Origin: Oscillospiraceae bacterium
GTDB lineage: Bacteria > Bacillota > Clostridia > Oscillospirales > Oscillospiraceae
NCBI GenBank assembly: GCA_902793285.1
Contig: CADBCV010000017.1
Location: forward strand, 1-39,344
Direction: 5' to 3'
Length of the DNA stretch: 39,344 bases
The notes under the pieces were generated by a model. The model did not search any database and had not been told where the DNA came from. It saw only the letters and a list, made by a program, of their open reading frames with translations. Position 1 is the first letter of the stretch. Each line of letters starts with the position of its first letter. The translations under genes were made by a program, and so were the position numbers. Below, piece after piece: positions 1,986-39,193 of the stretch.

Positions 1986-2072
1986 CCGTAGGGGCCGATG
2001 CCCTCATCGGCCCGCCGTTTTTGCAGAAATCTGCGTGATTTGGCGGGTCGATCTGGGGATCGACCCCTACGG
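1986..2072. repeat. Pair of convergent GTAGGGG-head hairpin repeats
   Basis: The left copy (1986-2017, plus) has stem GGCCGATG/CATCGGCC. The right copy (2042-2072, minus) has stem GGTCGATC/GATCGACC. Both keep the GTAGGGG head and a CCCGCC tail but differ in the arms. They face each other across about 24 bp in the gap between the esterase start and the FakA stop. The same two stem types recur at 31603-31674. Confidence 0.8.
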
Positions 2073-2116
2073 TCTTGCATTCATACTGGTTTTGAGACAG
2101 CCCCGCAACAGTTCAT

Positions 2117-3808
2117 TTATTCCACGCTGATCATGTAGTAGTACACCGGCTGGCCGCCGTCCACGACGCTCATCTCCGCGTTGGGGATGGCTTCCGCGAT
2201 GGCGGAGGCGGCCTCGTTTGCGGCGTCCTCCTGCACATCCTCGCCATAGTAGACGGTGATGAACTCGGGGTCAAACTGCCCGAAGGCCCGGATGAGATCC
2301 GCGAAGAGCGCCTTCTCGCTCTTGTAGCTGCCGAGCAGCGCCCCGTCCAGGAGGGCCAGGTACTCGCCCGCGTGGATGTCGTGCCCGTCGAAGTCGGAGT
2401 CGCGCGCGGCGTAGGTGACCATGGCGGTGTGCACATGCGCGGCGGCCTCCTTCATGGCCTCCACGATGGGCTCCTCATTCTCGTCGATGTTGAAGTTCAA
2501 AAGGGCCGAGATGCCCTGGGGCACGGTCTTCGTGGGGATGACGATGACGCGCTTGTCCTTCACAAGCTCCACGCTCTGCTCGGCCGCCAGGATGATGTTC
2601 TTGTTGTTCGGCAGGACGAAAACCGTCTCCGCCGGGGTGCGGTTGATCTCGCGCAGGATATCGTCGGTGGAGGGGTTCATGGTCTGCCCGCCGGTGACGA
2701 CGCGGTCCGCGCCGAGCTCGCAGAAGAGCTTGCGCATCCCCTCGCCCGCGGCCACGACCACCGCGCCGAACTGCTTTTCGGGGGCGGCGCAGGCGGGCTC
2801 GGCGTCCTCCATGCGCTCAAGCTCCTGCTCGATGGCATCGAGATCGTCGGTGCTGATGACCTTCTGCCCGGCCGCGTTCTGGTCGGCCTGGATGACCATG
2901 TTCTCGATCTTCGCGATCTCAAGCGTGCCGTACTTCTGGCTCTCGATGAGCACCTCGCCGGGGTTGTCGGTGTGGACGTGGACCTTGAAGATCTCATCGT
3001 CGTCGCTGATGACAAGGCTGTCGCCGATGCCGCCGAGATAGGCGCGCAGGGGCGCGAGATCCACGTCCGCGCTCTTTTTCCGCACGACATAGACCGTGTC
3101 GAAGGCGAAGGTGATGTTCTCGCGCGCGTCGTAGTGATTTTCGCCGGTCTCCACGACCTCCTCGATGCGCATCTGGTCCTGGGGGGCGAAAGCCTCGCCC
3201 TTCAGGGAGGCGAAGATCGCCTTGAGGATAATCATGTAGCCCATGCCGCCCGCGTCCACGACGCCGGCCTTTTTGAGCACGGGGTTGAGATTGATGGTGT
3301 CGGCCAGGGCCTCGTCCCCGGCGCGGATGGCGGCCTCAAAGGTCTGCTCGAGACTGGCCCCGCCGCCGGCCGCCTCGACAGCCGCCTCGGACGCGAGGCG
3401 CGCCACCGTGAGGATGGTCCCCTCGGCAGGCTTCATGACGGCCTTATAGGCGGCGTCCACACCCTCCCGCATGGCGGCGGCGAAGGTGCGCGCGTCCGTC
3501 TCCACAAGGCCCTTGAGCTTGCGGGAGATCCCGCGAAACAGCAGGCTCAAAATCACGCCGGAGTTTCCGCGCGCGGCCCGCAGGAGGGCCGAGGCCACGC
3601 AGTCCGCCGCGGCGGAGACGCTGGAAAACTCGTTCTTGCGCAGCTCCAGCGCGGCCCGCTCCATGGTCAGGCCCATGTTGGTGCCGGTGTCGCCGTCCGG
3701 GACGGGAAAGACGTTCAGGTCGTTGACGGCCTGAATATTGGCTTGCAGCGCGGCAAAGGCGCAGAGGATACCCTCCTTGAAGGCCGCGGCATTTATCATA
3801 TCTCTCAA
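2117..3808 (-). CDS. fakA: Fatty acid kinase ATP-binding subunit FakA (DhaL-domain, YloV family)
   Basis: Phosphorylates fatty acids held by a FakB (DegV-family) partner, feeding exogenous acyl chains into phospholipid synthesis in the cytoplasm. The 563-aa length fits the family. The N-terminal DhaL/DAK2 kinase domain carries NVFPVPDGDTGTNM (about residues 32-45), the metal- and nucleotide-binding loop, then ARGNSGVILS and DAGGMGYM. The C-terminal half has the LPNNKNIILAAEQS block of FakA/YloV proteins. The start shown is a TTG with GAGG nine bases upstream; an ATG three codons later (3799) is a close alternative. It lies 15 bp downstream of the Asp23-family gene, the usual yloU-yloV order. 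No FakB is present in this window. Confidence 0.9.
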   Translation of the reverse strand: MRDMINAAAFKEGILCAFAALQANIQAVNDLNVFPVPDGDTGTNMGLTMERAALELRKNEFSSVSAAADCVASALLRAARGNSGVILSLLFRGISRKLKGLVETDARTFAAAMREGVDAAYKAVMKPAEGTILTVARLASEAAVEAAGGGASLEQTFEAAIRAGDEALADTINLNPVLKKAGVVDAGGMGYMIILKAIFASLKGEAFAPQDQMRIEEVVETGENHYDARENITFAFDTVYVVRKKSADVDLAPLRAYLGGIGDSLVISDDDEIFKVHVHTDNPGEVLIESQKYGTLEIAKIENMVIQADQNAAGQKVISTDDLDAIEQELERMEDAEPACAAPEKQFGAVVVAAGEGMRKLFCELGADRVVTGGQTMNPSTDDILREINRTPAETVFVLPNNKNIILAAEQSVELVKDKRVIVIPTKTVPQGISALLNFNIDENEEPIVEAMKEAAAHVHTAMVTYAARDSDFDGHDIHAGEYLALLDGALLGSYKSEKALFADLIRAFGQFDPEFITVYYGEDVQEDAANEAASAIAEAIPNAEMSVVDGGQPVYYYMISVE

Positions 3809-3823
3809 GACTCTTATCCTCGC

Positions 3824-4171
3824 TTATCCGATGATCGTATCGATGAAGACATCAACGCGGCGCACGGGCACGCCCGCGGATTTGGACAGCTTGTAGCTGA
3901 CCTCCTTCATAATGCTCTGCGCCACGGCGCTCATATTCACGCCCTGATCCACGCCGATGTGCAGCTCCAGCGAGATGGAGCCGTCGTCGTGAAAGTGTAC
4001 GGTGACGCCCTTGGACATGGACTCCCTGCGCAGAAGCTGCATGACGCCCTCCTTGCTGCGGCTGATCATGCCCTTGACACCGAAGCAGCTCGTCGCGGCA
4101 ACGCCGGCGAGATAGGTCAGCACCTCGCTTGTGATGCTGATCGTGCCCTTTTCGTTTGTGATGTTTACCAC
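3824..4171 (-). CDS. Asp23/Gls24 family envelope stress response protein (YloU-like)
   Basis: A small protein (115 aa) of the Asp23/Gls24 family. The fold is seen in VVNITNEKGTISITSEVLTYLAG, the middle CFGVKGM, and the C-terminal VNMSAVAQSIMKEVSYKLSK and VRRVDVFID blocks. Family members are membrane-associated or cytoplasmic proteins linked to envelope stress, and the YloU type sits next to FakA, as here. The GTG start at 4171 is chosen because AAAGGGGGG lies 11 bases upstream and the family begins just before this point; a longer reading frame opens at 4222 but adds only basic, non-conserved residues. It is the first gene of a two-gene unit with a strong promoter at 4234-4262. Confidence 0.85.
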   Translation of the reverse strand: MVNITNEKGTISITSEVLTYLAGVAATSCFGVKGMISRSKEGVMQLLRRESMSKGVTVHFHDDGSISLELHIGVDQGVNMSAVAQSIMKEVSYKLSKSAGVPVRRVDVFIDTIIG

Positions 4172-4219
4172 AGGTCGGGCGCCCCCCTTTCGTTTCGCTT
4201 GCGGTTTACACACAGGGCG

Positions 4220-4262
4220 CAAACCGGTTTGATATTATACTATAGAAACAAGGAATTGACAA
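4220..4262 (-). promoter_or_regulatory. Promoter of the Asp23-FakA unit with start-site palindrome
   Basis: Reading on the minus strand: -35 TTGTCA (4257-4262), 17-bp spacer, -10 TATAAT (4234-4239). The perfect 12-bp palindrome CAAACCGGTTTG (4220-4231) falls where transcription should start. The promoter is a near-consensus sigma-A type; the operator role of the palindrome is inferred. Confidence 0.75.
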
Positions 4263-4282
4263 GGATTTTATTTTAACGTGAA

Positions 4283-4448
4283 AAAGCCTTCCCCTTGAGG
4301 GGAAGGTGCCCCAGTGCGCACACTGGGGCGGATGAGGTGGAACCCGCCGCCTCTGACCGGCATTGTACAAGCGGCAACGTTGACACCTCATCAGTCACGG
4401 CGCGGCCGGACACGCGCCGCGACAGCTTCCCCTCAAGGGGAAGCCTTT
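4283..4448. repeat. Long palindromic intergenic repeat (CTCCCT/TTCCCC family), copy 1
   Basis: The outer arms are hairpins of the type GCCTTCCCC/GGGGAAGG. The left inner stem is CCCCAGTG/CACTGGGG and the right inner stem is GGCGCG/CGCGCC. Constant GATGAGGTG and CCTCATCAGTCA blocks join the parts around a 44-bp centre. The right end overlaps the TAA stop codon of the secreted-protein gene (4447-4449). Confidence 0.8.
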
Positions 4449-5106
4449 ACGCCGCGGTGAACATGGCGAAGTTTTTCGCAAGGGCGTCCTTGTCGAGGGA
4501 GAAGCCCGTGACGACGCCCATGTAGTCGCCCTTGAGCAGCATGACCATCCGCTCATAGACGGGCACGCCGTACATCGTGCCGGAGACGTCGAGGCAGGCG
4601 TGGGTCTTGCCCGCGAATTCGCAGCTTCCCATCTCGAGCTTGACCTCGTCCATGAGGCCGCTGTCCTTGAGACTCTTCTCCACCTCTTCCATGCTGGCCT
4701 CGATGAGCTTCTCCTCGGTCAGCACGGCCTTCTGCAGGAGATTGAAGGCGCTCTTCTGGACCTGGATGTTGATGTTGTCGCCGCTGTTGTCCATGGCGGC
4801 GGTGTAGAGATCGAAAATGGACTCGTTCTCCTCGAGCATCCGGGCGAGCCAGTCGCTGTCCGCCTCCAGGAGGTCGAAGCCGTCATACATGAGCCGGGTG
4901 GCCTCCTCGGGGCTGAAGACCTGCCAGGTCTCGGGGATCTCGGCCCCGATGCCGAGGGCCTTGTTCTCATAGCGCTTTCCCTCGAGGGTGCCGATCATGT
5001 CAGACGCCTTCACGTCCCCCTCCCTGGCGGCGGCCTCCGCGAAGGCGGCGGGGACCAGCGAGAGGACCATCACGAGCGCGAGGATCATGCAGAGGATCTT
5101 TTTCAT
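4447..5106 (-). CDS. Secreted protein of unknown function
   Basis: I do not recognise a family. The 219-aa product starts with a clear type I signal peptide (MKKILCMILALVMVLSLVPAAFA), with probable cleavage after AFA and no lipobox. The mature part is acidic and alpha/beta-like. It includes GIGAEIPETWQVFSPEEATRL, which resembles the start of PsbP/DUF-type stress domains in Firmicutes exoproteins (family assignment uncertain), and a closing KGDYMGVVTGFSLDKDALA. The ATG is chosen because AAAGGAG lies eight bases upstream; an upstream in-frame ATG at 5124 has no such site. The stop codon is formed at the edge of the repeat at 4283-4448. It is flanked by repeats on both sides and is apparently monocistronic. 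Confidence 0.8.
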   Translation of the reverse strand: MKKILCMILALVMVLSLVPAAFAEAAAREGDVKASDMIGTLEGKRYENKALGIGAEIPETWQVFSPEEATRLMYDGFDLLEADSDWLARMLEENESIFDLYTAAMDNSGDNINIQVQKSAFNLLQKAVLTEEKLIEASMEEVEKSLKDSGLMDEVKLEMGSCEFAGKTHACLDVSGTMYGVPVYERMVMLLKGDYMGVVTGFSLDKDALAKNFAMFTAA

Positions 5107-5175
5107 GTCGGTTTCTCCTTTCAAAAACAGAATGAAACGGGTTCCATGATGGGGCTTTATAATGTCCGCGCCTGT

Positions 5176-5210
5176 CCGTAGGGGACGGCGCCCTCGACGT
5201 CCCGCGCGGG
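5176..5210 (+). repeat. GTAGGGG-head hairpin repeat
   Basis: CCGTAGGGG head, stem GGGACG/CGTCCC with a GCGCCCTCGA loop, then a CGCGCGGG tail. The arm sequence differs from other copies while the head and length are kept. Confidence 0.7.
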
Positions 5211-5225
5211 GGGGAGGCTAATAAC

Positions 5226-5360
5226 GGCTCCCTCCCAGAGGGAGCTGTCAGCGCCGCCCGCGGCGATGACTGAGGGAGTGCTCCTTCCGTCATCCGGCTT
5301 GCGTGAGACGCCGGCGGCTTGCGTGAGACGCCGGATGCCACCTCCCTCAGAGAGGGAGGC
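5226..5360. repeat. Long palindromic intergenic repeat, copy 2, with tandem stem duplication
   Basis: The outer arms are GGCTCCCTC/GAGGGAGC and CCTCCCTC/GAGGGAGG. The left inner stem is GCGCCG/CGGCG-like. On the right, the inner stem unit CGGCTTGCGTGAGACGCCGG occurs twice head-to-tail (5295-5314 and 5315-5334), an exact 20-bp tandem duplication. It lies just downstream of the lepA stop codon. Confidence 0.8.
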
Positions 5361-5391
5361 AAAAGCGCCGGCTGTCATCGGCGCTGCCGTA

Positions 5392-7193
<1,802 letters not shown>

Positions 7194-7197
<4 letters not shown>

Positions 7198-7520
7198 GCT
7201 TCCTGCTCCTTTCCCGTGTATTCGCCGAGAGCGGCGCGGGCCTCCGTGATGCGCGCCTCCACCGCGCCGAGGGCGGCGAGGGCCGTGTCGGCGGCGCTGC
7301 GGGCGGCGTCGGGTCTGTCGCTGCGGCCGAGGAGGTAGTCGGCGGTGACGCCGTAATAATCGCAGGCGCGGCACACAAAGCCGAGACCCGGCTCGCGCGC
7401 GCCGTTTTCATAGTGGCTCAGAAGCGCCTGGCTGATGCCGAGATCGCTCGCCGCCGTGCGCTGGTTGATCTTCCGCTCCCGCCGGAGGGAGGAGAGAATT
7501 TCGGGAAAGCTCCTGTCCAT
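7194..7520 (-). CDS. XRE-family HTH transcriptional regulator
   Basis: A 108-aa DNA-binding protein. Residues about 5-60 form a Cro/C1-type helix-turn-helix ([20 protein letters not shown], then [20 protein letters not shown]), followed by [22 protein letters not shown], the common SinR/XRE-type end of this domain. The last 40 residues are Ala-rich and helical, perhaps a dimerisation tail. The ATG is chosen for the AGAGG site eight bases upstream. It overlaps lepA by four bases and is divergent from pta across a 140-bp region with promoters for both sides, so autoregulation or control of pta is possible but unproven. Confidence 0.88.
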
Positions 7521-7556
7521 GGTCGTTGCCTCTTTATATTTGATTACAGTCAGTAT

Positions 7557-7585
7557 ATTATATCCGACGGGCGCTTCTTTGTAAA
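7557..7585 (-). promoter_or_regulatory. Promoter of the XRE-lepA unit
   Basis: On the minus strand: -35 TTTACA (7580-7585), 17-bp spacer, -10 TATAAT (7557-7562). The -10 is consensus and the spacing is ideal. It lies about 37 bp before the XRE start codon. Confidence 0.75.
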
Positions 7586-7593
7586 TAGAATTC

Positions 7594-7622
7594 TTGAAAT
7601 TGCGCCCCGTTCGTGCTATGTT
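7594..7622 (+). promoter_or_regulatory. Probable promoter of pta
   Basis: -35 TTGAAA (7594-7599), 17-bp spacer, -10 TATGTT (7617-7622), about 38 bp before the pta ATG. It is back-to-back with the XRE promoter; the two -35 boxes are only about 8 bp apart. Confidence 0.6.
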
Positions 7623-7660
7623 TATAGTATCGACCAAATATTATGCTGGAGGTAGATTCC

Positions 7661-8659
7661 ATGTTTGAAAATCTGGTAGAAATTCTCAAGGCCAATCCCC
7701 GCAAGATCGTCTATACCGAGGGCACCGACGCCCGCATCCTCGAGAGCGCGGCCCGGCTCAAGAAGGACGGCTTCCTGACGCCCGTGCTCATCGGCAACGT
7801 GGACGCGGTCAAGGCCGCGGCGGCCAAGGGCGGCTTCGATATCGAGGGGCTTGAGATCATCGACCCCGAGACCTATCCCGAGATGGACAGGTTTGTGGAC
7901 GACTTTGTCGCCCTGCGCAAGGGCAAGGCCACCGCGGAGGAGGCCCGCGCCATGCTCCTGAAGTCCAACTACTTCGGCACCATGCTGGTGAAGGAGGGCC
8001 TGGCCGACTCCCTGCTCGGCGGCGCGACCTACTCCACGGCCGACACCGTCCGCCCCGCCCTGCAGCTCGTGAAGACCAGGAAGGGCGCAAACCTCGTCTC
8101 CTCCTGCTTCATCCTGGTCCGCGGCAAAGAGATGCTCGCCATGGGCGACTGCGCCATCAACATCTCCTATGAGGACAAGAAGGACAAGGAGGGCAACGTC
8201 GTCCTGACCGCCGCCCAGCAGCTTGCCGAGGTCGCCGTCGAGACCGCGAAGACCGCGAAGGTCTTCGGCATCGACCCCAAGGTCGCCATGCTCTCCTTCT
8301 CCACCAAGGGCTCCGGCAAGGGCCCCGGCCCCGAGCTCGTGCGCAATGCCACCGCCATCGTCAAGGAGACCCATCCCGAGATCGCCTGCGACGGCGAGAT
8401 GCAGTTTGACGCGGCCGTGAGCCCCACCGTCGGCCAGCTCAAGTTCCCGGGCAGCACTGTCGCGGGCTACGCCAACACCTTCATCTTCCCGGAGATCCAG
8501 TCCGGCAACATCGGCTACAAGATCGCCCAGCGTCTCGGCGGCTTCGACGCCTACGGCCCCATCCTGCAGGGCCTGAACGCCCCCATCAACGACCTCTCCC
8601 GCGGCTGCAACGCCGAGGAGGTCTATCAGATGAGCATCATCACCGCCGCGCTCGTCTGA
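7661..8659 (+). CDS. pta: Phosphate acetyltransferase
   Basis: Converts acetyl-CoA and phosphate to acetyl phosphate and CoA, the first half of the acetate/ATP-yielding fermentation route. The 332-aa length is that of the short, single-domain Pta. Visible family blocks include IVYTEGTDARILESAARL at the N-terminus, TADTVRPALQLVKT, SSCFILVRGKEMLAMGDCAIN, MLSFSTKGSGKGP and the C-terminal NIGYKIAQRLGGFDAYGPIL with GLNAPINDLSRG. The ATG follows GGAGG with ideal spacing; an in-frame ATG at 7643 lacks one. No acetate kinase gene follows: the gene is monocistronic and the next 560 bp are repeats. Confidence 0.96.
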   Translation: MFENLVEILKANPRKIVYTEGTDARILESAARLKKDGFLTPVLIGNVDAVKAAAAKGGFDIEGLEIIDPETYPEMDRFVDDFVALRKGKATAEEARAMLLKSNYFGTMLVKEGLADSLLGGATYSTADTVRPALQLVKTRKGANLVSSCFILVRGKEMLAMGDCAINISYEDKKDKEGNVVLTAAQQLAEVAVETAKTAKVFGIDPKVAMLSFSTKGSGKGPGPELVRNATAIVKETHPEIACDGEMQFDAAVSPTVGQLKFPGSTVAGYANTFIFPEIQSGNIGYKIAQRLGGFDAYGPILQGLNAPINDLSRGCNAEEVYQMSIITAALV

Positions 8660-8667
8660 ACCTGTCC

Positions 8668-8699
8668 CGCCGGGCGGTCGAGGACGCCCGCCCCTACGG
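8668..8699 (-). repeat. GTAGGGG-head hairpin repeat
   Basis: The minus strand reads CCGTAGGGGCGGGCGTCCTC then GACCGCCCGGCG. The stem is CGGGCG/CGCCCG type. It lies 8 bp past the pta stop codon, where it could act as a terminator-like structure. Confidence 0.75.
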
Positions 8700-8722
8700 C
8701 GTTGTAACACCTTAAACTTTAT

Positions 8723-8819
8723 CTGTCATCCTGAGCGTCAGCGAAGGATCCCGCGGATGGTTGCAACAGGTACGGGATTCTTCGTCGCTGGCGCTCCTCA
8801 GAATGACAGCAAGTTTTAA
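8723..8819. repeat. Inverted repeat of the CTGTCAT...ATGACAG family, copy 1
   Basis: It begins CTGTCATCCTGAGCG and ends CTCAGAATGACAG, with GAAGGATCCCGCGG and GGGATTCTTCGTCGC inside. The two halves are imperfect inverted copies. Related copies lie at 20331-20416 and 39274-39344. Confidence 0.75.
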
Positions 8820-8858
8820 TTGTTACAGACTACGGCGAGGCGCAAATGTTCCCATCTG

Positions 8859-9006
8859 CCGTAGGGGAGGGGCTTGCCCCTCCCGCGCGCGGAAATATAA
8901 AAACGCAAAAAATGTACGGCGATTTCGCGAAAAGCTGCGATTTCGCCGTACATTGCTTTTAAATGATTGCCCGGTTCCGCCGGGCGGGGCAAGCCCCGCC
9001 CCTACG
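8859..9006. repeat. 148-bp composite of three hairpins (two GTAGGGG hairpins around a GTACGGCGA hairpin)
   Basis: Left: a GTAGGGG hairpin with stem GGAGGGGC/GCCCCTCC (8859-8890). Centre: ATGTACGGCGA (8912-8922) pairing with TCGCCGTACAT (8943-8953). Right: an inverted GTAGGGG hairpin with the different stem GGCGGGGC/GCCCCGCC (8978-9006). The element at 35097-35244 has the same order and the same total length. Confidence 0.8.
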
Positions 9007-9018
9007 TATCTCCTTTAA

Positions 9019-9143
9019 CCTCCCTTTCGAAAAGGGAGGGGGACCGCCGAAGGCGGTGGAGGGATCGAAGATTTTCCCAGGACAGTCGATCCCTCAGTCA
9101 CCAGTGTGCGCACTGGTGACAGCTCCCTTTCGCAAAGGGAGCT
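9019..9143. repeat. Long palindromic intergenic repeat, copy 3
   Basis: Outer hairpins CTCCCTTT/AAAGGGAG occur at both ends. Inner stems are ACCGCC/GGCGGT on the left and CACCAGTG/CACTGGTG on the right, joined by the TGGAGGGATCGA and TCGATCCCTCAGT blocks that pair with each other. Together with neighbouring repeats it fills the 560-bp gap between pta and the regulator; no gene is seen there. Confidence 0.8.
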
Positions 9144-9174
9144 TAGAACGCGGGGAATCTTGGCCCCCCTATAC

Positions 9175-9203
9175 CGCCGGGCGGGGCAAGCCCCGCCCCT
9201 ACG
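9175..9203 (-). repeat. GTAGGGG-head hairpin repeat
   Basis: The minus strand reads CGTAGGGGCGGGGCTTGCCC then CGCCCGGCG, identical in type to the right arm of the composite at 8859-9006. It lies 17 bp from the regulator stop codon. Confidence 0.75.
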
Positions 9204-9220
9204 CTTGGGACGGGGAGTTT

Positions 9221-10282
9221 TCATCCGCTGCGTCTTTCGCGCAGGGTCCAGGGGAGGCGGGCGCCGGGGGCGGGTTTGCCGGCAAGCAGGCGCAGGAGGG
9301 CCTTTGCCGCGAGGGTGCCCATCTGGTGCTTTTCGTGGGCGAGGGAGGTGATGGGCACCGGGGAGAGGGTGCAGAGGTGGCTGTTGTCAAAGCTCACCAC
9401 CGCCGCGTCCTCCGGCACCCGCCGCCCTATGCGCAGGAGCGCGCGGATGAGGGGGTAGGCGATCTCGTCGTTATAGCAGACGACGGCGGTGCAGGGGGCG
9501 AGGCGCGCGGCAAAGCGCTCGAGCCAGTCGCCCCGGCCCGCGAGCAGCGCCTCGCGCGCCGCGGTGTCGTACCAGAGAATGTGCGCCTCCTCGAGCGAAA
9601 GCCCCTCGCGCAGAAGGGCAGAGGCAAAGCCGAGGTAGCGCTCGTGCCCCTGGCGGTCGTCGCTTTTGAAGACGGCGGCGATATGCTCATGCCCCCGCTC
9701 CCGGAGATGGCGGACCAGGATGCGCGCGCCCTCCGCGTTCTCGTCCTGGATGCAGGGGGCCCCCTCCGGGACCGGCAGCGGCGCGTGCAGCCACACGAGC
9801 GGGATGCCCTGCCGCCCGATCTGCTCCAGCAGGTCCAGGTTCACGCTCGGCAGGGCGCTCTTTGCCCCCTCGATGAGGATGCCGGCCGGGGGATCGGCCA
9901 GAAGGCGCGCGAGGACCGCCCGCTCCTCACGGACAAGATTGTGCGTGACGCAGACCTCCACCGTGCAGCCGGCCTCGGCGAACACGGCCTCCAGATCCCG
10001 CAGGAGCTGGGGGTAGAGATAGGTGTCCGCCGAGGGGAGCACCACGGCGACGCGGCCCCGGCGCACCGGCTCCGCGCCCGCAAGGTAGGTCCCGCTGCCG
10101 TGCACGCGCACGATCAGCCCCTCCTCCGCGAGGATCGAGAGCGCGCGGCGCACGGTCTCGCGGCTGCATCCGCACTCCGCGCAGAGCGCGAGCTCCCCGG
10201 GCAGCTTTGTCTGTCCCTCTTTCCGCATCCGGGCGCAGCGGCGTCTCAGCTCCGCCGCCGCCGTGAGATACCTGGCCGGCAT
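9221..10282 (-). CDS. GntR-type HTH regulator with LacI-like sugar-sensing domain
   Basis: A 353-aa transcription factor. Residues 1-70 form a GntR-type winged helix (KLPGELALCAECGCSRETVR, then RALSILAEEGLIVRVHGSGTYL). Residues about 75-345 form a periplasmic-binding-protein-like sensor of the LacI/GalR type (GRVAVVLPSADTYLYPQLL, GILIEGAKSAL, HLRERGHEHIAAVF, DAAVVSFDNSHL, PVPITSLAHEK). This fusion is the AraR-like arrangement. The start has GGGGAG upstream. It is divergent from the sugar-transport operon across 440 bp, which makes it the probable local, sugar-responsive regulator of that operon; this is inferred from position. The ligand is unknown and the family usually acts as a repressor relieved by sugar. 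Confidence 0.92.
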   Translation of the reverse strand: MPARYLTAAAELRRRCARMRKEGQTKLPGELALCAECGCSRETVRRALSILAEEGLIVRVHGSGTYLAGAEPVRRGRVAVVLPSADTYLYPQLLRDLEAVFAEAGCTVEVCVTHNLVREERAVLARLLADPPAGILIEGAKSALPSVNLDLLEQIGRQGIPLVWLHAPLPVPEGAPCIQDENAEGARILVRHLRERGHEHIAAVFKSDDRQGHERYLGFASALLREGLSLEEAHILWYDTAAREALLAGRGDWLERFAARLAPCTAVVCYNDEIAYPLIRALLRIGRRVPEDAAVVSFDNSHLCTLSPVPITSLAHEKHQMGTLAAKALLRLLAGKPAPGARLPWTLRERRSG

Positions 10283-10312
10283 GTGCCCACTCCCCTTTTC
10301 TTCGTTTGCCCC

Positions 10313-10318
10313 ATTCTA
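10313..10318 (-). promoter_or_regulatory. Possible extended -10 promoter of the regulator gene
   Basis: On the minus strand TGGTAGAAT gives an extended -10 box about 31 bp before the regulator ATG. No good -35 box is seen 17 bp upstream. Confidence 0.4.
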
Positions 10319-10634
10319 CCACAGATCGCCCGCCCGGAAAATCCCCTTTCGCACCGCCGGAAAAAAACAGACTTTCTCGCGCCGGAGGGTTGTTTTTTCA
10401 TTGACTTTGACGGACACGGCCGGAAAATAATCCGATAAAGCGAGGGACTTTTGGGCAGATTATCCAAAGCGCGGCGCGGGGCAGGCACTTCAAAAATCGG
10501 AAGAAAACCGACAAATCCGCCCGCCGGATCGGAAAAAAACCGCCTCCCGGCAAAGTTGTCTGCTTTTTGAAAAACATGCCGCAAACTTGTATTTATTTGC
10601 TTTCACGGTTTTGCGCTCCGCCGCCCCGAAAGCC

Positions 10635-10663
10635 TTGACGCCGGGCGGAAAAAGTGCTTTGAT
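10635..10663 (+). promoter_or_regulatory. Probable promoter of the sugar ABC operon
   Basis: -35 TTGACG (10635-10640), 17-bp spacer, TTTGAT (10658-10663), or TTGATA at 18 bp. It would give a leader of about 50 nt to the first ATG. The 10283-10634 stretch holds A-rich blocks and a second TTGACT at 10401-10406 but no gene. An imperfect CAAA...TTTG dyad lies near 10573-10590 and is too weak to call an operator. Confidence 0.5.
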
Positions 10664-10721
10664 AGGCTCAGCGGGAAATCCATTCCCAAGTCAAAAATTT
10701 TTTTGAAAAGAGGTAAAGACC

Positions 10722-11717
10722 ATGAAGAAAGTTCTTGCACTTCTCCTTGTTCTGGTCATGATGGCTTCTCTGAGCGTCGTCGCTTATGCGGATGACATCA
10801 AGGTCGCCTTCTCCCAGATCGGTCAGGAATCCGACTGGCGCACCGCGAACACCGACAGCATCAAGAGCACGATCGAAGGCCACGACGGCTGGACGCTCAT
10901 CTATGATGACGCGCAGCAGAAGCAGGAGAACCAGATCAAGGCTCTGCGCAACTTCATCACCCAGGGCGTTGATTACATCCTCTTCACCGGCGTTGTTTCC
11001 ACCGGCTGGGACGAAGTCCTTGCTGAGGTCAACGAGGCTGAGATCCCCCTGATCCTGGTCGACCGTATGCCCGACTGCGCCGACAAGATCGACTACGCCG
11101 CTGCATTCGGCGGTGACTTCGTCGAAGAGGGCCGCCGCCAGGTCGCGTGGGCCGGCGAGTATCTGAAGACCCTTGGCCGCGGCGATGAGGAAGTCTGCGT
11201 CGCCATCATGGAAGGCACCACCGGTGCTGACGCTCAGGTCGGCCGTACCGAGGGCAACCTGGCCGCTCTGAAAGAGTACCCCAACATGAAGCTCGTGGCT
11301 CAGCAGTCCGGCAACTTCACCCGTACCGAGGGCCAGGCCGTTATGGAAGCATGGCTCAAGTCCGTTGACAAGATCGACGTCCTGATCGTCCAGAACGACG
11401 ACATGGGTCTCGGCGCCATCGACGCCATCAAGGCCGCCGGCCTTGTTCCCGGCAAGGACATCATCATTGTTGGCTGCGACTCCGTCAAGGCCGCGTTTGA
11501 GGCCATTGTCGCCGGTGAGATGAACGCCACCGTCGAGTGCACCCCGCTCTATGGCCCCTTCGTTGAGAAGACCATCGAGGCTCTCGAGGCCGGCGAGACC
11601 TTTGAGAAGACCATCGTTCACCCCGAAGAGGGCGTGTACGACTGCGTGGGCGGCATCGACCTCGGAACGGTCACCTCTGTCCTCGCTGCTGATGTGATTG
11701 ACAGCCGCGTCTACTGA
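10722..11717 (+). CDS. Sugar ABC transporter substrate-binding protein (YtfQ-like)
   Basis: An extracytoplasmic binding protein of the Peripla_BP_4 family (331 aa) that delivers a sugar to the permease encoded downstream. The mature N-terminus IKVAFSQIGQESDWRTANTD and the block QQKQENQIKALRNFITQGVD closely follow E. coli YtfQ, the galactofuranose/galactose-type binding protein, as recalled from memory. The signal peptide is MKKVLALLLVLVMMASLSVVAYA, with cleavage predicted before DDIK. There is no lipobox cysteine, unusual for a binding protein in a single-membrane Firmicute. Codons GCT, GTT and CGT are commoner than in neighbouring genes, which fits high expression. AGAGGT precedes the ATG. 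A hairpin with a T-run follows the stop codon, so more binding protein than permease may be made. Confidence 0.92.
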   Translation: MKKVLALLLVLVMMASLSVVAYADDIKVAFSQIGQESDWRTANTDSIKSTIEGHDGWTLIYDDAQQKQENQIKALRNFITQGVDYILFTGVVSTGWDEVLAEVNEAEIPLILVDRMPDCADKIDYAAAFGGDFVEEGRRQVAWAGEYLKTLGRGDEEVCVAIMEGTTGADAQVGRTEGNLAALKEYPNMKLVAQQSGNFTRTEGQAVMEAWLKSVDKIDVLIVQNDDMGLGAIDAIKAAGLVPGKDIIIVGCDSVKAAFEAIVAGEMNATVECTPLYGPFVEKTIEALEAGETFEKTIVHPEEGVYDCVGGIDLGTVTSVLAADVIDSRVY

Positions 11718-11754
11718 TTCTCTTTATCCTTTCACATCAACATCCTGAATCCTG

Positions 11755-11782
11755 GGGGCTGGCGCTCAGCCGGCCCCTTTTT
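11755..11782 (+). terminator. Intra-operon intrinsic terminator or attenuator after the first binding-protein gene
   Basis: The stem GGGGCTGGC (11755-11763) pairs with GCCGGCCCC (11769-11777), with a 5-nt loop and five Ts (11778-11782). Because the ATPase gene follows on the same strand, partial termination is the likely role. Confidence 0.75.
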
Positions 11783-11783
11783 C

Positions 11784-11814
11784 AAGGGTGGACGGCGTAC
11801 AGCCTTCCGCCCTT
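11784..11814 (+). other. Second hairpin between binding-protein and ATPase genes
   Basis: AAGGGTGGACGGC (11784-11796) pairs imperfectly with GCCTTCCGCCCTT (11802-11814), ending a few bases before the AAGGAGG site of the next gene. It may protect mRNA ends or modulate ribosome access. Confidence 0.55.
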
Positions 11815-11835
11815 GTCCTTTAAGGAGGAATTCAA

Positions 11836-13353: not shown

Positions 13354-14420
13354 AAAAGAAAAACTTCTCGCTATCCGGCATCATGCAGTCCAAGATCACC
13401 TGGGCCGTTGTGGCTGAGCTTCTGATTCTGCTGGTCTGCTTTATTATCCGGCCGGATTTCTTCTCGATCAAGTACCAGCCCGCCACCGGTATGCTCTACG
13501 GCAGTTTGATCGACATTCTCAACCGCTCCGCGGAGATCACCATCATCTCCATGGGCATGACGCTCGTCATCGCCCTGGGCGGCACTGACCTCTCCGTCGG
13601 CTCTCTCGTGGCGCTGAGCGGCGCGCTGGCCTTGAAGTTTCTCCGCTGGGACGTGCTGGTTTACACCACGCCGGGTGATTACACGGTCAAGCCCTTCATC
13701 CTGGTGATCCTGGTCCCGCTCGCCGTGTGCACGCTGATGGGCCTCTTCAACGGCTTTATGATCTCGCGCATCGGGATGCAGCCCATCATTGCGACGCTGA
13801 TCCTCATGGTATGCGGGCGCGGCATCGCGCAGATCGTGACGAACGGCAAACAGTTCACCACACTGTACTCGCCCTTCCGCGTGATCGGGCAGGGGAGCTT
13901 TCTGTTCCTGCCGATGCCGATTATCATCTCAATTATTGTTGTGGCGGCGGTTTCCATCTTCGTGCGAAAGACGGCCTTCGGCACGATGGTGGAATCTGTC
14001 GGCATCAACCCGAGTGCGAGCCGCCTGAGCGGCATCGACTCCCGCAGGATCATCATGATCGTCTTCGCCCTCACGGCGTTTCTCTCGGCGATCGCAGGCC
14101 TCATCACCGCAAGCCGCGTCATGTCGAACGACTCCAACAACTTCGGCATCAACTTTGAGATGGACGCCATCCTGGCCGTCGTTATAGGCGGCACGAACAT
14201 GGCAGGCGGCAAATTCAGTCTCGCCGGCACGGTGATCGGCTCCATCATCATCCGCACGATCGTGACCTTCGTCTACTACTTCGGCATCGTCTCGGAGGCG
14301 ACCATGGCGTTCAAGGCGCTCATCATCATCGTCGTTATCGTGCTGCAGTCCGAGCCTGTCCGCAAGAGGATGTCGAAGATGGGCAAGAAGCGGATGAAGG
14401 GAGGTGCGGTACATGCCTGA
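13350..14420 (+). CDS. Sugar ABC transporter permease (YtfT-like)
   Basis: A 356-aa membrane protein of the BPD_transp_2 (RbsC-type) family with about eight to ten hydrophobic segments. The family motif is seen in MGMTLVIALGGTDLSVGSLV, and the loop facing the ATPase in TMVESVGINPSASRLSGID. Then follow AVVIGGTNMAGGKFSLAG and a basic, cytoplasmic C-terminus. The ATG overlaps the ATPase stop codon by four bases and the gene overlaps the following permease, so the core of this importer is translationally coupled. It should pair with the next gene product as a heterodimeric channel. Confidence 0.92.
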   Translation: MKKKNFSLSGIMQSKITWAVVAELLILLVCFIIRPDFFSIKYQPATGMLYGSLIDILNRSAEITIISMGMTLVIALGGTDLSVGSLVALSGALALKFLRWDVLVYTTPGDYTVKPFILVILVPLAVCTLMGLFNGFMISRIGMQPIIATLILMVCGRGIAQIVTNGKQFTTLYSPFRVIGQGSFLFLPMPIIISIIVVAAVSIFVRKTAFGTMVESVGINPSASRLSGIDSRRIIMIVFALTAFLSAIAGLITASRVMSNDSNNFGINFEMDAILAVVIGGTNMAGGKFSLAGTVIGSIIIRTIVTFVYYFGIVSEATMAFKALIIIVVIVLQSEPVRKRMSKMGKKRMKGGAVHA

Positions 14421-16692: not shown

Positions 16693-16705
16693 TGTATCAC
16701 CTGCA

Positions 16706-17819: not shown

Positions 17820-17829
17820 GGTGGCGGGC

Positions 17830-23668: not shown

Positions 23669-23803
23669 CTTGCCCCTCCCGGCAGTACAGCATAACTATA
23701 AAAAACAATGTACGGCGAAATCGTATCATTTTACGAGATCGCCGTACTATTCTGCGTATTAAAACGTCTTGCCGCGCGGGAGGGGCAAGCCCCTCCCCTA
23801 CGG
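23669..23803. repeat. Degenerate three-hairpin composite repeat
   Basis: Left: a worn half of a GTAGGGG hairpin (CTTGCCCCTCCCGG, 23669-23683). Centre: GTACGGCGA...TCGTA pairing with TACGA...TCGCCGTAC (about 23710-23745). Right: an inverted GTAGGGG hairpin with stem GGAGGGGC/GCCCCTCC (23773-23803). It is the third relative of the 148-bp composites. It sits between tcdA and the PPIase gene, where the gap holds no gene. Confidence 0.7.
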
Positions 23804-31521: not shown

Positions 31522-31674
31522 CGTCGGGCGGTCGGGGACGCCCGCCCCTACGACAGGCGGAGGCATTTGTACATCAGAGTACGCTTGTACAGAATCGCAG
31601 ATCGGCGGGCCGATGAGGGCATCGGCCCCTACGGAGCAGGCCCCGTCGTAGGGGTCGATCCCCTGATCGACCCG
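31522..31674. repeat. Cluster of three GTAGGGG-head hairpin repeats
   Basis: 31522-31552 (minus): CGGGCG-type stem. 31603-31634 (minus): stem GGCCGATG/CATCGGCC. 31647-31674 (plus): stem GGTCGATC/GATCGACC. The last two are the same stem types as the pair at 1986-2072 but point away from each other. The 393-bp gap between glgD and glgP holds these repeats and no gene. Confidence 0.75.
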
Positions 31675-34161: not shown

Positions 34162-35054
34162 ACACCAAAAAAGACGCCGCCGTGGTTATCGGCGGCGTCA
34201 ATATGGATATCTGGGGAAGGCCCACCGGGGCGCTCGTGAAGCGCGACTCCAACCCCGGCACCGTGCGCATGACGCCGGGCGGGGTGGGGCGCAACATCGC
34301 GCACAACCTGCGCCTTCTGGGGATGAACGTGGCCTTCGTCACCGCCCTGGGGGACGATCTCTTCGGCCGCTACCTGATGGACTCCTGCACGGGGCTCGGG
34401 CTCGACATGCAGTACGCCCTCGTCAAAAAAGGCGGGCACAGCTCCTCCTATCTCTTCGTCACCGAGGAGGGCGGGGACATGGCCGTCGCCATCAACGACA
34501 TGGACATCTGCGCCGCCCTCACGCCGGATTTCTTCGAGCCGCTGCTGCCGAAGCTCAAGGGCTACGGGGCCATGGTCCTGGACACAAACCTCCCCGAGGA
34601 GTCGCTGGATTGGCTCTGCGCCCACGCGCGCCTGCCCCTCTATGCCGACACGGTCTCCGCCGCGAAGGCGAAACGGCTCCTGCCGCAGCTCAGGCGCTTG
34701 CGGGCCATCAAGACAAACGCCCTGGAGGCCGAGGCCCTCACCGGCGAGCGGGACCCCGAAAAGGCCGCCGCAAGGCTCTCCAGGCTCTGCCCGGGGCGCG
34801 TGTTCCTCAGTCTCGGGGCGGAGGGGATCATCGCGGCCGAACGGGATAAGCTCCTGCGCCTGCCGGTCTACGACGCGGAGGTGGTGAACACCACCGGCGC
34901 CGGGGACGCCGCGGCCGCCGCCATCGTCTGGGCGGACCTGCGGGGCTTTGATCTCAAGGACACCGCGCAGCTTGCCCAGCTCGCCGGCAGCATCACCTGC
35001 CGCAGCCCCGGCCCCAATAACCCGGAGCTGAGCGCCCTGCCGCAGCTTATGTAA
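34146..35054 (+). CDS. PfkB-family carbohydrate kinase, pseudouridine-kinase-like
   Basis: A ribokinase-family enzyme of 302 aa. The sequence SNPGTVRMTPGGVGRNIAHN with LLGMNVAFVTALGDDLFGRYL, and the later MAVAINDMDI, agree strongly with E. coli PsuK (YeiC) as recalled, so pseudouridine to pseudouridine-5'-phosphate is the best guess. The N-terminal GGVNMDI and C-terminal NTTGAGDAAAAAI (catalytic Asp) PfkB signatures are intact. The ATG overlaps the glgP coding end by 16 bp, implying translational coupling. No psuG glycosidase lies nearby, and the link to glycogen genes is unexplained, so another nucleoside or sugar substrate is possible. Confidence 0.85.
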   Translation: MAHPLNTKKDAAVVIGGVNMDIWGRPTGALVKRDSNPGTVRMTPGGVGRNIAHNLRLLGMNVAFVTALGDDLFGRYLMDSCTGLGLDMQYALVKKGGHSSSYLFVTEEGGDMAVAINDMDICAALTPDFFEPLLPKLKGYGAMVLDTNLPEESLDWLCAHARLPLYADTVSAAKAKRLLPQLRRLRAIKTNALEAEALTGERDPEKAAARLSRLCPGRVFLSLGAEGIIAAERDKLLRLPVYDAEVVNTTGAGDAAAAAIVWADLRGFDLKDTAQLAQLAGSITCRSPGPNNPELSALPQLM

Positions 35055-35096
35055 AGGGCGTGCTGCAAGATGGGACTGTAAATGCGATGTTTTTGA

Positions 35097-35244
35097 CCGT
35101 AGGGGAGGGGCTTGCCCCTCCCGCGCGGAGAAATGTTAAAATTGCAAAAATGTACGGCGATTTCGTAGAAAGCTACGATTTCGCCGTACATTGCTTTTCA
35201 TGGATTACCCTGTGCTGCCGGGAGGGGCAAGCCCCTCCCCTACG
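35097..35244. repeat. 148-bp composite of three hairpins, second copy
   Basis: Left: a GTAGGGG hairpin with stem GGAGGGGC/GCCCCTCC (35097-35128). Centre: ATGTACGGCGA (35150-35160) with TCGCCGTACAT (35181-35191), plus inner TCGTAG/CTACGA separated by a symmetric TT/TT internal loop. Right: an inverted GTAGGGG hairpin of the same stem type (35217-35244). It has the same total length as 8859-9006. It lies between the convergent psuK-like and asd genes. Confidence 0.82.
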
Positions 35245-35269
35245 CTGTCATACAGGCTTTTCTGTTTTA

Positions 35270-36277
35270 TTACATCTTCTCCGCGAGGAGCTTGAGGATC
35301 TGGACCGCGTTGGAGGCCGCGCCCTTGCGGATCTGGTCGCCGCAGCACCAGAGCGTCAGGCCGTTTTCATCGGTGAGGTCTTCGCGGATCCTGCCGACCC
35401 AGACGAGATCCTGATCGGTGGTGTCGAGCGGCGTGGGATAGCAGCGGCCCTCGTAGTCCTCGATGAGGCGCACGCCGGGGTAGGCGGCGACGGCGGCCTT
35501 TGCGGCCTCGACAGAGACCTTTTCCTTCGTGTGGAGGGTGACCGCCATGGAGTGGGAGCGCATGACCGGCACGCGCACGCAGGTGCAGTTGACCTTGAGC
35601 TCGGGGCTGTGCATGATGCGGCGGCCCTCGTTCTGCATCTTCATCTCCTCCTTGGTGTAGTCGTTGCCGTAGGGGGCGTCGATGAAGGGGATGACGTTCA
35701 TGGCGATCTGGTGGGCGAAGGTCTTGACCACGGGCTTCTCGCCGTTTGCGAGGGCGGCCATCTGGTCGTTGAGCTCGTTGATGCCGTTGGTGCCCGCGCC
35801 GGAGACGGCCTGGTAGGTGCAGACGATCATCTTCTCAATGGGGGAGAGCTTTTCGATGCCCGCCACGGCCATGAGGGTGATGACGGTGCAGCAGTTGGGG
35901 TTTGCGATGATGCCGTGGTTTTCAAAGGCGTCCGCGCCGTTGATCTCGGGGACCACGAGGGGCACGTCGGGCTCAAGACGGAAGGCGGAGCTGTTGTCGA
36001 TGTACACGGCGCCGCTCTTTTTGATGGCGGGGGCAAAGCGGCGGGACATGTCGCCCTCCACCGCGCCGAGGACGAAATCAAGGCCCTCAAAGGCGTCGTC
36101 GTTGGCCTCCCGGATGGGGACGTCCCTGCCCTTGAAGCGGATGCACTTGCCGACGCTCTTCGCGCTGGCGAGGGGGCGGAGCTCGCCCACGGGGATATCA
36201 TACTCGGCGAGGATCTTGATCATCTCCTGGCCGACAGCGCCCGTGGCGCCGAGAACTGCGATATTCAGAGCTTTCAT
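35270..36277 (-). CDS. asd: Aspartate-semialdehyde dehydrogenase
   Basis: Reduces aspartyl phosphate to aspartate semialdehyde with NADPH, the branch point to lysine, threonine and methionine. 335 aa. The N-terminal nucleotide loop is GATGAVG (10-16), the active-site Cys is in NPNCC (Cys129), and the substrate regions YQAVSGAGTNGINEL and VRVPVMRSHSMAV are present with His. GGAGG precedes the ATG by eight bases. It is the third gene of the hom-lysC-asd block but is separated from lysC by a 257-bp gap with a large palindromic repeat, so it may rely on read-through or its own promoter. Confidence 0.96.
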   Translation of the reverse strand: MKALNIAVLGATGAVGQEMIKILAEYDIPVGELRPLASAKSVGKCIRFKGRDVPIREANDDAFEGLDFVLGAVEGDMSRRFAPAIKKSGAVYIDNSSAFRLEPDVPLVVPEINGADAFENHGIIANPNCCTVITLMAVAGIEKLSPIEKMIVCTYQAVSGAGTNGINELNDQMAALANGEKPVVKTFAHQIAMNVIPFIDAPYGNDYTKEEMKMQNEGRRIMHSPELKVNCTCVRVPVMRSHSMAVTLHTKEKVSVEAAKAAVAAYPGVRLIEDYEGRCYPTPLDTTDQDLVWVGRIREDLTDENGLTLWCCGDQIRKGAASNAVQILKLLAEKM

Positions 36278-37851: not shown

Positions 37852-38991
37852 TTATGCCTCCACGGCGGCGAAGAAGATGCTGCCGCCCTCCTGTCGGATG
37901 TCGTTTGCGAGCTTGTGCATTTGGGGCACCGCGATGGGCTCCACCACGCCGCGCACGCTGTCGCCGTCCGCCCGGCACTCCCTGAAGGAGAAGCGCCCGG
38001 CCTTGTCCGCGTCCACGCGCACATAGTAGGGGTGCACGCAGCCCGCGTTATTGGCCCGCACCTTCACGCAGGCGGGGCGGAACATTTCAAGGCTTCCCAG
38101 GCCGCAGAGGTCGCGCACCACGGCGGAGGCGGTGGGATAGCGCCCCGCGCCCTGGCCCAAGAGGACGATGGCGCCGGCGTTTTCGCCGTTGTACTTTGCC
38201 ATGTTGAAGTTTTTCACCACGGAGCACTCCGGGGCGTTCGCCGGGAAGAGCACGGGCTCCACATAGGCGTAGACGCTCGCGCCCGCGGGGCCGCCGGAGG
38301 TGATGAGGCGGCAGGTCAGGCCCCTGGCCTGGAAGTCCGCGACATCGGCGGCGGTGATGCTCTCGATCCCTTCGCGGGAAAATCCGTCCACCGGCAGCTT
38401 GTCATAGGCCACCGCGCAGGCCAGCATGATCTTTCTGAGCGCGTCGAGACCCGACACGTCCGCCGTGGGGTCAGCCTCGGCATAGCCGAGGGCCTGGGCC
38501 TGCTTCAAGACGTCGCCGTAATCCTTGCCCTCGGCCTGCATGGCGTCGAGCATGAAGTTCGTGGTGCCGTTCAAAATGCCGCCGAGGGAGAGGATCTTAT
38601 CGCTCTGGGCGGCGATGGCGAGGTTGTGCAGGAAGGGGACGCCGCCGCCGCAGGCCGCCGAGAAGAGGAAGGAAACGCCCTTCCGGCGCGCAAGCTCCGC
38701 AAGCTCGATCCCGTGCGCCGCGACCAGCGCCTTGTTGGAGGTGACCACATGCTTGCCCGCCTCCAGCGCCATGGCGACATAGGAATTGGCGGGCTCGATG
38801 CCGCCCATGACCTCCGCCACCGCATAGACCTCGGGATCATTCACAATGGCCTCCATGGAGGAGACCTTAAAGGGCTTGTCCTCCTTGCCCGGACGGACCA
38901 GGACGGGGCCCGGTTCCAGCCCGGCGCAGTTTTCCAGCATCTCGTAGACGCCGACGCCCACGGTGCCAAAGCCCAGAATTGCAACTTTCAT
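37852..38991 (-). CDS. hom: Homoserine dehydrogenase
   Basis: Reduces aspartate semialdehyde to homoserine for threonine and methionine. 379 aa. NAD(P)-binding GFGTVG (7-12), the glycine-rich LFSAACGGGVPFL, substrate block GGILNGTTNFML, and the catalytic region DPTADVSGLDALRK (Lys187). The segment after about residue 320 (YYVRVDADKAGRFSF to the end) occupies the position of an ACT domain but is only about 58 residues long, so feedback sensing may be reduced. The ATG is chosen for GAGAGGAAG upstream; an earlier in-frame start at 39057 is less likely. First gene of the hom-lysC pair. Confidence 0.95.
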   Translation of the reverse strand: MKVAILGFGTVGVGVYEMLENCAGLEPGPVLVRPGKEDKPFKVSSMEAIVNDPEVYAVAEVMGGIEPANSYVAMALEAGKHVVTSNKALVAAHGIELAELARRKGVSFLFSAACGGGVPFLHNLAIAAQSDKILSLGGILNGTTNFMLDAMQAEGKDYGDVLKQAQALGYAEADPTADVSGLDALRKIMLACAVAYDKLPVDGFSREGIESITAADVADFQARGLTCRLITSGGPAGASVYAYVEPVLFPANAPECSVVKNFNMAKYNGENAGAIVLLGQGAGRYPTASAVVRDLCGLGSLEMFRPACVKVRANNAGCVHPYYVRVDADKAGRFSFRECRADGDSVRGVVEPIAVPQMHKLANDIRQEGGSIFFAAVEA

Positions 38992-39047
38992 GGATATCTT
39001 CCTCTCTATGTCCGCGATTTGGGGACAATTGTCTTTAGAATGGCGAC

Positions 39048-39076
39048 AGTTTAACATACCCCGCCGGAGATTACAA
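39048..39076 (-). promoter_or_regulatory. Promoter of the hom-lysC unit
   Basis: On the minus strand: -35 TTGTAA (39071-39076), 17-bp spacer, -10 TAAACT (39048-39053). The -35 box overlaps one arm of an imperfect hairpin (ACAAG, 39073-39077, pairing with CTTGT, 39095-39099, around T6/A6). No riboswitch or T-box is seen in the leader of about 50 nt. Confidence 0.65.
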
Positions 39077-39164
39077 GTCTTTTTTCCGAAAAAACTTGTC
39101 AGAATTGCGAGAATCCGCCGGGGTTTTTTTAGCGGTTTTCAATAAAACCTTTCTCGGGTCCGCT

Positions 39165-39193
39165 CCGTAGGGGCGGGCGTCCCCGACCGCCCG
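39165..39193 (+). repeat. GTAGGGG-head hairpin repeat
   Basis: CCGTAGGGGCGGGCGTCCCC then GACCGCCCG. The CGGGCG-type stem is the same as at 8668-8699 and 31522-31552. Confidence 0.75.

Follow-up and report, generated by a model that had tools for sequence, protein, structure and literature searches.

Arm-diverse GTAG hairpins in an Oscillospiraceae contig as probable REP elements associated with RAYT transposases

How can a family of short palindromes change both arms from copy to copy while the arms remain complementary? The question is raised by a 39,344-nucleotide stretch of DNA, hereafter the window, which is contig C17 (CADBCV010000017.1) of a 2.36-Mb, 79.5% complete assembly of an Oscillospiraceae bacterium. 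A sequence-only reading had listed 16 intergenic copies of a hairpin repeat there, with a constant GTAGGGG head and at least six stem sequences, and had proposed either selection on the fold or a copying mechanism that swaps stems. Our results indicate that the repeats are very probably repetitive extragenic palindromes (REPs) of the GTAG superfamily, arranged in composites similar to bacterial interspersed mosaic elements (BIMEs) or REPINs with Y1 (HUH) transposases of the REP-associated tyrosine transposase (RAYT)/TnpAREP group as their most likely mobilising agents. These would be of the subclass 2.4 type, a likeness drawn from REP features. Subclass 2.4 TnpAREP reportedly equals RAYT group 4 of Bertels 2017.

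We scanned the whole window for GTAG followed by a stem of at least 8 bp with at most one mismatch. As intact GTAGGGG hairpins, 14 of the 16 listed copies were recovered, every one scored with a 9-bp stem and a 2- or 4-nt loop; of the remaining two, the contig end truncates the copy at 1-18, and that at 69-97 is decayed. The pattern GTAGGGG-N12-17-CCC returned the same 14 copies, vs. 0.24 expected and a maximum of 3 in 100 dinucleotide shuffles. The sole other GTAG hairpin from the scan, near 27124, is unrelated and appears on both strands. Six arm types were confirmed, in line with the number of stems proposed earlier. When the six were folded as single-stranded DNA (ssDNA), GTAG was unpaired in all of them, both TT-loop types formed 8 bp with a 4-nt loop, and a G.A mismatch occupied stem position 7 in two. 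The stem bottom consisted of three G-C pairs (GGG/CCC) in 14/14 hairpins, a count to be read with the pattern's own requirement for GGG/CCC. The GGG is part of the stem, which leaves GTAG as the only constant unpaired portion, and the head described earlier has to be shortened to these four nucleotides. The unit is composed of an unpaired GTAG foot, a stem opening with GGG and a short loop, frequently with a conserved mismatch at stem position 7, and the 14 intact copies carry this foot at the base of a 20-40 bp palindrome, as REPs do. The window copies lie outside the Pfam-matched parts of the 20 open reading frames (ORFs) scanned, the majority close to gene 3′ ends; the copies at 31603-31674 overlap the 5′ end of a phosphorylase ORF, that end being probably over-long.

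Selection on the fold is supported by covariation in hits that were gathered without a pairing requirement from 420,996 bases (the window and 20 further stretches). All 46 GTAGGGG-N16-CCC hits have at least 8 of their 9 stem positions paired, G-T allowed, and full pairing was found in 37 of 39 GTAGGGG-N14-CCC hits, with broken pairs in the other 2. In 16 distinct genomic sequences of the 9-4-9 form, likewise unselected for pairing, 93.1% of cells pair and the non-pairing cells are confined to stem position 7. Their covariation score was 0.420 vs. 0.118 for shuffled sequences, was reached in 0/500 shuffles, and was at most 0.083 once the partners were slid. Arms that lose complementarity, named in the sequence-only reading as the outcome that would count against it, were not what we found, since the arms vary with complementarity kept. 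For covariation among hairpins located inside genes (see below) we used 38 of 62 distinct 26-mers, in which the limit of one mismatch biases the percentage paired upward.

In the whole assembly we counted 352 pattern hits vs. 34 for the reversed pattern used as a control. The repeat has the high copy number and, in the window, the intergenic placement typical of REPs. Class and spacer counts were made on 808,398 bases, i.e., the window and 40 further stretches. These held 150 hairpins of more than a dozen arm classes, the commonest being GGGAGGGGC with loop TT (44/150). Outward pairs showed preferred distances of about 97 bp (27 pairs), 64 bp (8) or 30 bp (3); for tandem pairs the distance was about 54 bp (20). 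The median identity of spacers within a type was 75% for 97 bp (n=19), 80% for 64 bp (n=7) and 64% for 54 bp (n=18). E. coli BIMEs consist of REPs alternating in orientation, with spacers between them. The REPs of the window's genome likewise alternate in orientation and are joined by spacers; unlike in E. coli BIMEs, more than a dozen arm classes occur, and the 64-bp and 54-bp spacers have mixed ends.

The spacer types differ in the REPs at their ends. The 97-bp spacers contain an internal hairpin in versions A and B; TT-type REPs, taken to include a one-base-longer variant scored as GGGCGGCG/5, were found at 32/34 ends of version A vs. 0/20 ends of version B, and the end classes were identical in 17 of the 27 composites. 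By contrast, the 64-bp spacers showed 8 end-class combinations in 8 pairs and the 54-bp spacers 17 in 20, with no same-class ends on either, although the two ends of one pair are only one stem position apart (0/28 vs. 3.5 expected, p=0.02, a weak test). Among spacer pairs at least 85% identical, an end differed in 5/5 of the 64-bp type and in 2/10 of the 97-bp type. We rejected the idea that the 97-bp spacer exchanges its ends freely, given the same-class composites, the TT-type ends of version A and the few similar spacers that differ. Swapping of arms is supported by the mixed 64-bp and 54-bp composites but not by the 97-bp ones, which are mostly unmixed. In the simplest reading, recombination inside shared spacers together with repeated insertion explains the mixed ends, and a direct act of stem-swapping, though conceivable, is not required. 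The internal hairpin of the 97-bp spacers, TGTACGGCGATTTCGTA...TACGATTTCGCCGTACA, was noted in many composites (e.g., window 8885-8981 and 35123-35219); by eye, its stem has two adjacent T.T mismatches.

One gene of the assembly encodes a Y1_Tnp domain above the cut-off. It is an intact, 169-codon frame on contig C43 that includes two inverted REP hairpins, encoding PVGGGVLDAPKT and GASRTPPPT. By sequence profile, the best PDB match of its RAYT relatives was 4ER8, the E. coli TnpAREP, which was also the best match to the predicted fold of one relative (TM 0.60, mean pLDDT 83.4). The NCBIfam model REP_Tyr_transpos was ranked first in 4/4 proteins and passed its curated cut-off in 1/4. Residues H81, H83, Y146 and N150 are invariant in 39 aligned RAYT proteins, Y146 and N150 aligning with the catalytic region of 4ER8. 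Judged by sequence and model, these proteins appear to combine an HUH motif, a single catalytic Tyr and the Y1 fold, and in the relatives the genes are associated with flanking or cognate REPs, as is usual for RAYTs. A second, broken RAYT was observed on contig C22 (G000:C22:27390-27686, locus L142); its remaining hairpin resembles class GGGCCGACG, and a TT-loop REP composite lies beside or within it.

Hairpins inside the gene are common among the relatives. We examined 127 RAYT genes, which include two identical pairs and one near-identical pair (124 non-redundant), from genomes of the window's family and from metagenome-assembled genomes (MAGs) titled Clostridia, Oscillospiraceae, Ruminococcaceae, Clostridiales and the like; eighteen further loci (17 new, from genus relatives) were left out of the in-gene counts. 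In the 124 non-redundant genes, hairpins were present at both of two fixed sites in 102, at one site in 9 and at none in 13. This prevalence may be overestimated, as the 80 loci from named MAGs are the best 80 of 355 confirmed and resemble a query that itself bears REP peptides. Conversely, some genes scored as hairpin-less carry GTAGG with a weaker hairpin, and one (L169) with two hairpins in opposite orientation was scored as none; in-gene REPs are absent from the RAYTs of genomes G097, G165 and G214. Before redundancy removal, 97 of 103 two-site genes had an open frame and the HUH motif, so that REPs at both sites occur without a frame break. Some in-gene hairpins of relatives deviate from the G-C bottom, with another pair at position 3. 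One of the two sites lies upstream of the HUH motif. In the protein model, the residues of site 1 would form a loop between two strands and those of site 2 a low-confidence linker before a long helix. In two genes (L033, L098) the peptide encoded by the site-2 REP was seen to be tandemly repeated.

The two in-gene copies tend to carry, and to change, the same arms. The lower arm is identical at both sites in 76 of 96 genes vs. 7.7 expected, and unequal in 20. On a RAYT tree built with hairpin residues removed (97 of the 127 genes kept, after dropping those with a missing hairpin, a stop or an unreadable HUH), the site-1 arm changed at least 43 times vs. a mean of 74 with shuffled labels. For instance, L057 and L080, 73% identical, differ in their arms at both sites; L043 and L048 are an exception, with a difference at site 1 only. 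For 94 genes there is a relative of at least 50% identity with another site-1 arm; in 85 of these site 2 differs as well, and in 49 site 2 equals site 1 within both genes. That RAYT genes often change both in-gene arms together speaks in part for the copying mechanism proposed earlier. The pair might be a functional part of the gene, so that a transposase would carry its own recognition hairpin twice, inverted, with the copies kept alike via conversion or copying, enzyme and arm class inherited and switched together, and self-binding of DNA or mRNA possibly serving as control; we offer this tentatively and consider it rather doubtful.

Arm class follows the neighboring transposase. Among 33 RAYT loci with REPs within about 3 kb, a flanking REP within 3 edits of the gene's own hairpin was found in 26, vs. 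3.7 expected when matching with another gene's hairpins, and the REPs beside the RAYT in G097 and G165 are of the respective genome's common loop type. For the six window arm types, RAYT counterparts were identical in-gene hairpins in four cases, an in-gene hairpin one loop base off in one, and a flanking REP in one. Class GGGAGGGGC/TT is identical to a hairpin in L209 of the genus-mate G205, a genome with many matches to the 97-bp composite, GGGCGGGGC/TT to one in L090 (the matched stretch holds a stop), GGGCGGgCG to those in L047 and L052, and GGGACGgCG to one in L056. The in-gene counterpart of GGGCCGATG, with the different loop base, is in L135, and GGGTCGATC shares upper stem and loop with the flanking GGAGCGATC in G214 (L204).

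REPs and RAYTs also co-occur among genomes. In 200 genomes of the family, a RAYT match was found in 12 of 15 REP-rich genomes (50 hits or more and a count no lower than double that of the control, cut-offs set after the counts were seen) vs. 48 of 185 others (hand count; Fisher p=5e-5, a value that ignores relatedness, some of the 15 sharing a genus). Of the three REP-rich genomes lacking a match, G031 has a Pfam Y1_Tnp domain and G006 and G117 have none. Within the genus, the REPs are lineage-specific. Gene order around the window pieces 34700-35700 and 1-20000 is mostly not conserved in genus relatives, so the comparison was limited to single-gene 3′ flanks of five window genes. No REP hairpin was found in any of the 21 orthologous 3′ flanks (semialdehyde dehydrogenase gene, 0/9; four other genes, 0/12; up to about 500 bases each, two of 94 and 268 only). 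The flanks reveal absence of the REPs in relatives but no precise empty sites.

A mechanism that would join these results can be drawn by analogy with published biochemistry. The unit would fold on a single DNA strand, e.g., the lagging-strand template, exposing the GTAG foot and the hairpin; the transposase would recognise foot and fold together with the loop or mismatch, cut beside the hairpin, and copy or move single REPs and two-ended composites to intergenic DNA, mostly near gene 3′ ends. Lower-stem pairs might be recognised mainly by pairing and not by letter, in which case both arms would be free to change together and many arm classes would arise. RAYT genes would carry, or be flanked by, REPs of their own class, and a class switch, loss or new arrival of a RAYT would leave the old classes behind, so that one genome comes to hold many classes with a common foot and architecture. 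Recombination or conversion between composites would then mix end classes on shared spacers. The data themselves show the fold, the covariation, the RAYT genes, the agreement of classes close to RAYTs and the lineage-specific sites; cutting, movement and mixing are what we infer.

Several results weigh against mobilisation by RAYTs. We saw no REP movement, and in genus relatives the pieces 34700-35700 and 1-20000 yielded no clean empty site between two conserved flanking genes. At 7 of the 33 loci none of the flanking REPs came near the class of the gene itself, and the counterpart of class GGGTCGATC is flanking only, with a different lower arm. The sole intact RAYT of the assembly carries GGGGCGgCG, a class that accounts for only 4/150 REPs, including the two in-gene copies, and the 3.2 kb examined for this gene contain no flanking REP. 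The exact RAYT match for the commonest class, GGGAGGGGC, is in the genus-mate G205 and not in the window's assembly; about 20% of the genome is missing, and the RAYT of this class may lie there or have been lost. Finally, two REP-rich genomes, G006 with 303 hits and G117 with 167, lack any Y1_Tnp match; for G006 we noted no hits in the control and no Y1_Tnp in an 88%-complete assembly.

Other explanations account for parts of these data. The hairpins could be transcribed RNA elements, i.e., terminators or mRNA 3′-end stabilisers, kept for their RNA fold, with transposase spread being incidental. Most window copies do lie near gene 3′ ends, the compensatory arm changes are equally compatible with an RNA fold, and published work suggests that REPs may be transcribed (PMC3733652). 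However, the stretch 8500-9400, the only one scanned (901 bases, four copies inside), has no terminator-like T-run site, on which ground the terminator reading was rejected, and the Rfam scan of the whole window gave nothing at the gathering threshold. Nor does an RNA role account for the foot sequence GTAG, the mixture of orientations, the composite arrangement or the in-gene copies that match flanking REPs, and it fits poorly with the absence of the REP from every orthologous 3′ flank tested. We regard it as very unlikely. A peptide origin of the in-gene hairpins, in which they would be accidental by-products of the conserved VG-x-GV-x-D-x-P and GxSxTPxPT and not DNA hairpins that were selected or copied, is hardly credible. 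The positions of the sites are indeed conserved in the protein. Yet foot and stem survived synonymous recoding of 217 hairpins in a mean of only 0.2% of trials, and hence the hairpin is not dictated by the peptide; moreover, the hairpins persist across widely differing peptides, the lower arm is shared although the sites are read in opposite orientation, and flanking REPs match the in-gene copies.

Somewhat less improbable, though still unlikely, is that one RAYT reads only foot, loop and fold and spreads every arm class of the window's genome, the classes being neutral drift within one family. Several classes share the upper hairpin gCGnCCnCGa with different paired lower arms, and so do in-gene copies (39 genes, 8 arms). 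On the other hand, the TT-loop, CCCT/CCCA and 3-nt-loop classes differ in loop and upper stem and each has its own RAYT elsewhere, flanking REPs follow the class of the local RAYT instead of being random, and versions A and B of the 97-bp spacer are divided between TT-type and other ends.

Much of this layout is known, contrary to the earlier remark that no formal description of the modular arrangement was known: PMC3733652, PMC3686654 and PMC6006769 cover REP families, class change and in-gene REPs, respectively. Di Nocera (2013; PMC3733652) distinguished 24 families of GTAG REPs on the basis of stem and loop, with stem changes that are complementary. The window repeats agree with that superfamily in the GTAG end, stems of 5-13 bp, short loops, stem changes matched by their complements, dimers both outward and tandem, heterodimers, and a mostly intergenic location often close to gene 3′ ends, a placement made by the text description. 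As a difference, that text names Proteobacteria, Cyanobacteria, Chloroflexi and PVC for such repeats, the word Firmicutes being absent from the available text. BIMEs are named in PMC2817692 and PMC3733652. A change of REP class at orthologous RAYTs was termed orthoswitch (Nunvar, 2013; PMC3686654), where the way in which REP classes switch is called speculative; there, as here, REP classes change on orthologous RAYTs and old classes outlast RAYT loss, but in that account cognate REPs flank the gene, whereas here there is an in-gene pair of which both copies often switch. Long REPs with three G-C pairs at the foot and REPs within tnpAREP genes were described by Quentin (2018; PMC6006769). An insertion of 8 aa in another part of subclass 2.4 is noted in that paper as well and might correspond to the first site here. 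Our elements resemble subclass 2.4 in the GTAG foot, the three G-C pairs of the stem bottom and the REPs flanking the gene and in-frame inside it; they differ from the available account in having two fixed in-gene sites, one upstream of HUH, coordinated arms and Clostridia hosts. The literature already records covarying REP families, mosaic dimers, the switching of classes and the presence of REPs within RAYT genes. The two fixed sites, coordinated arm switching, Clostridia hosts and many-class mixed-end spacers are, as far as these texts go, possible additions to the literature cited, although Figure S10 of PMC6006769 may already show the second in-gene site.

On these results, Clostridia MAGs harbor a large and highly diverse population of REPs and RAYTs; many of the MAGs are labelled Oscillospiraceae and come, by title, from animal guts. 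The results also supply naturally occurring pairs of transposase relatives, in some cases with about 70% identity (masked protein), whose arm class differs at both in-gene sites and which would make specificity and class switching directly testable.

Table 1. REP hairpins, composites and remnants of the window
Positions	Strand	Feature	Neighboring gene	Basis
1..18	-	REP of GGGCGGgCG type, cut off by contig end; tandem pair with 69-97 (by eye)		
69..97	-	Decayed REP, foot GCAG, arm pair broken		Missed by hairpin scan
1986..2017	+	REP GGGCCGATG/CCCT; left half of outward pair with 2042-2072, 31-bp spacer		Hairpin scan
2042..2072	-	REP GGGTCGATC/CCCA	3′ of FakA-like gene (2117-3808, -)	Hairpin scan
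5176..5210	+	REP GGGACGgCG/CCCT, G.A mismatch	3′ of lepA (5392-7374, -)	Hairpin scan
8668..8699	-	REP GGGCGGgCG/TCCT, G.A mismatch	3′ of phosphate acetyl/butyryltransferase (pta-like) gene (7643-8659, +)	Hairpin scan
8859..9006	.	Composite: REP GGGAGGGGC/TT (+), 97-bp spacer with internal hairpin, REP GGGCGGGGC/TT (-)		Hairpin scan
9175..9203	-	REP GGGCGGGGC/TT	3′ of GntR-type regulator gene (9221-10282, -)	Hairpin scan
23773..23803	-	REP GGGAGGGGC/TT	3′ of PPIC-type PPIase gene (23869-25407, -)	Hairpin scan
31522..31634	-	Tandem composite: REPs GGGCGGgCG/TCCC and GGGCCGATG/CCCT, 55-bp spacer		Hairpin scan
31647..31674	+	REP GGGTCGATC/CCCT; inward orientation, 15 bp from preceding REP		Hairpin scan
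35097..35244	.	Composite: REP GGGAGGGGC/TT (+), 97-bp spacer with internal hairpin, REP GGGAGGGGC/TT (-)	3′ of semialdehyde dehydrogenase gene (35270-36277, -)	Hairpin scan
39165..39193	+	REP GGGCGGgCG/TCCC, G.A mismatch		Hairpin scan
39247..39253	+	Truncated REP: GTAGGGG foot without stem, absent from earlier list		

The last two features of Table 1 are linked by what appears, by eye, to be a spacer of the 54-bp type. Other repeats were also noticed in the window. A different short dispersed repeat with inverted arms lies at 4281-4338 and has several matches in the genus-mate G216. Another, around TCATTCTGAGGAGCGAAGCGACGAAGAATC, occurs at 8776-8809 and at about 39275-39310, and the stretch 8776-8809 has many matches in G216.

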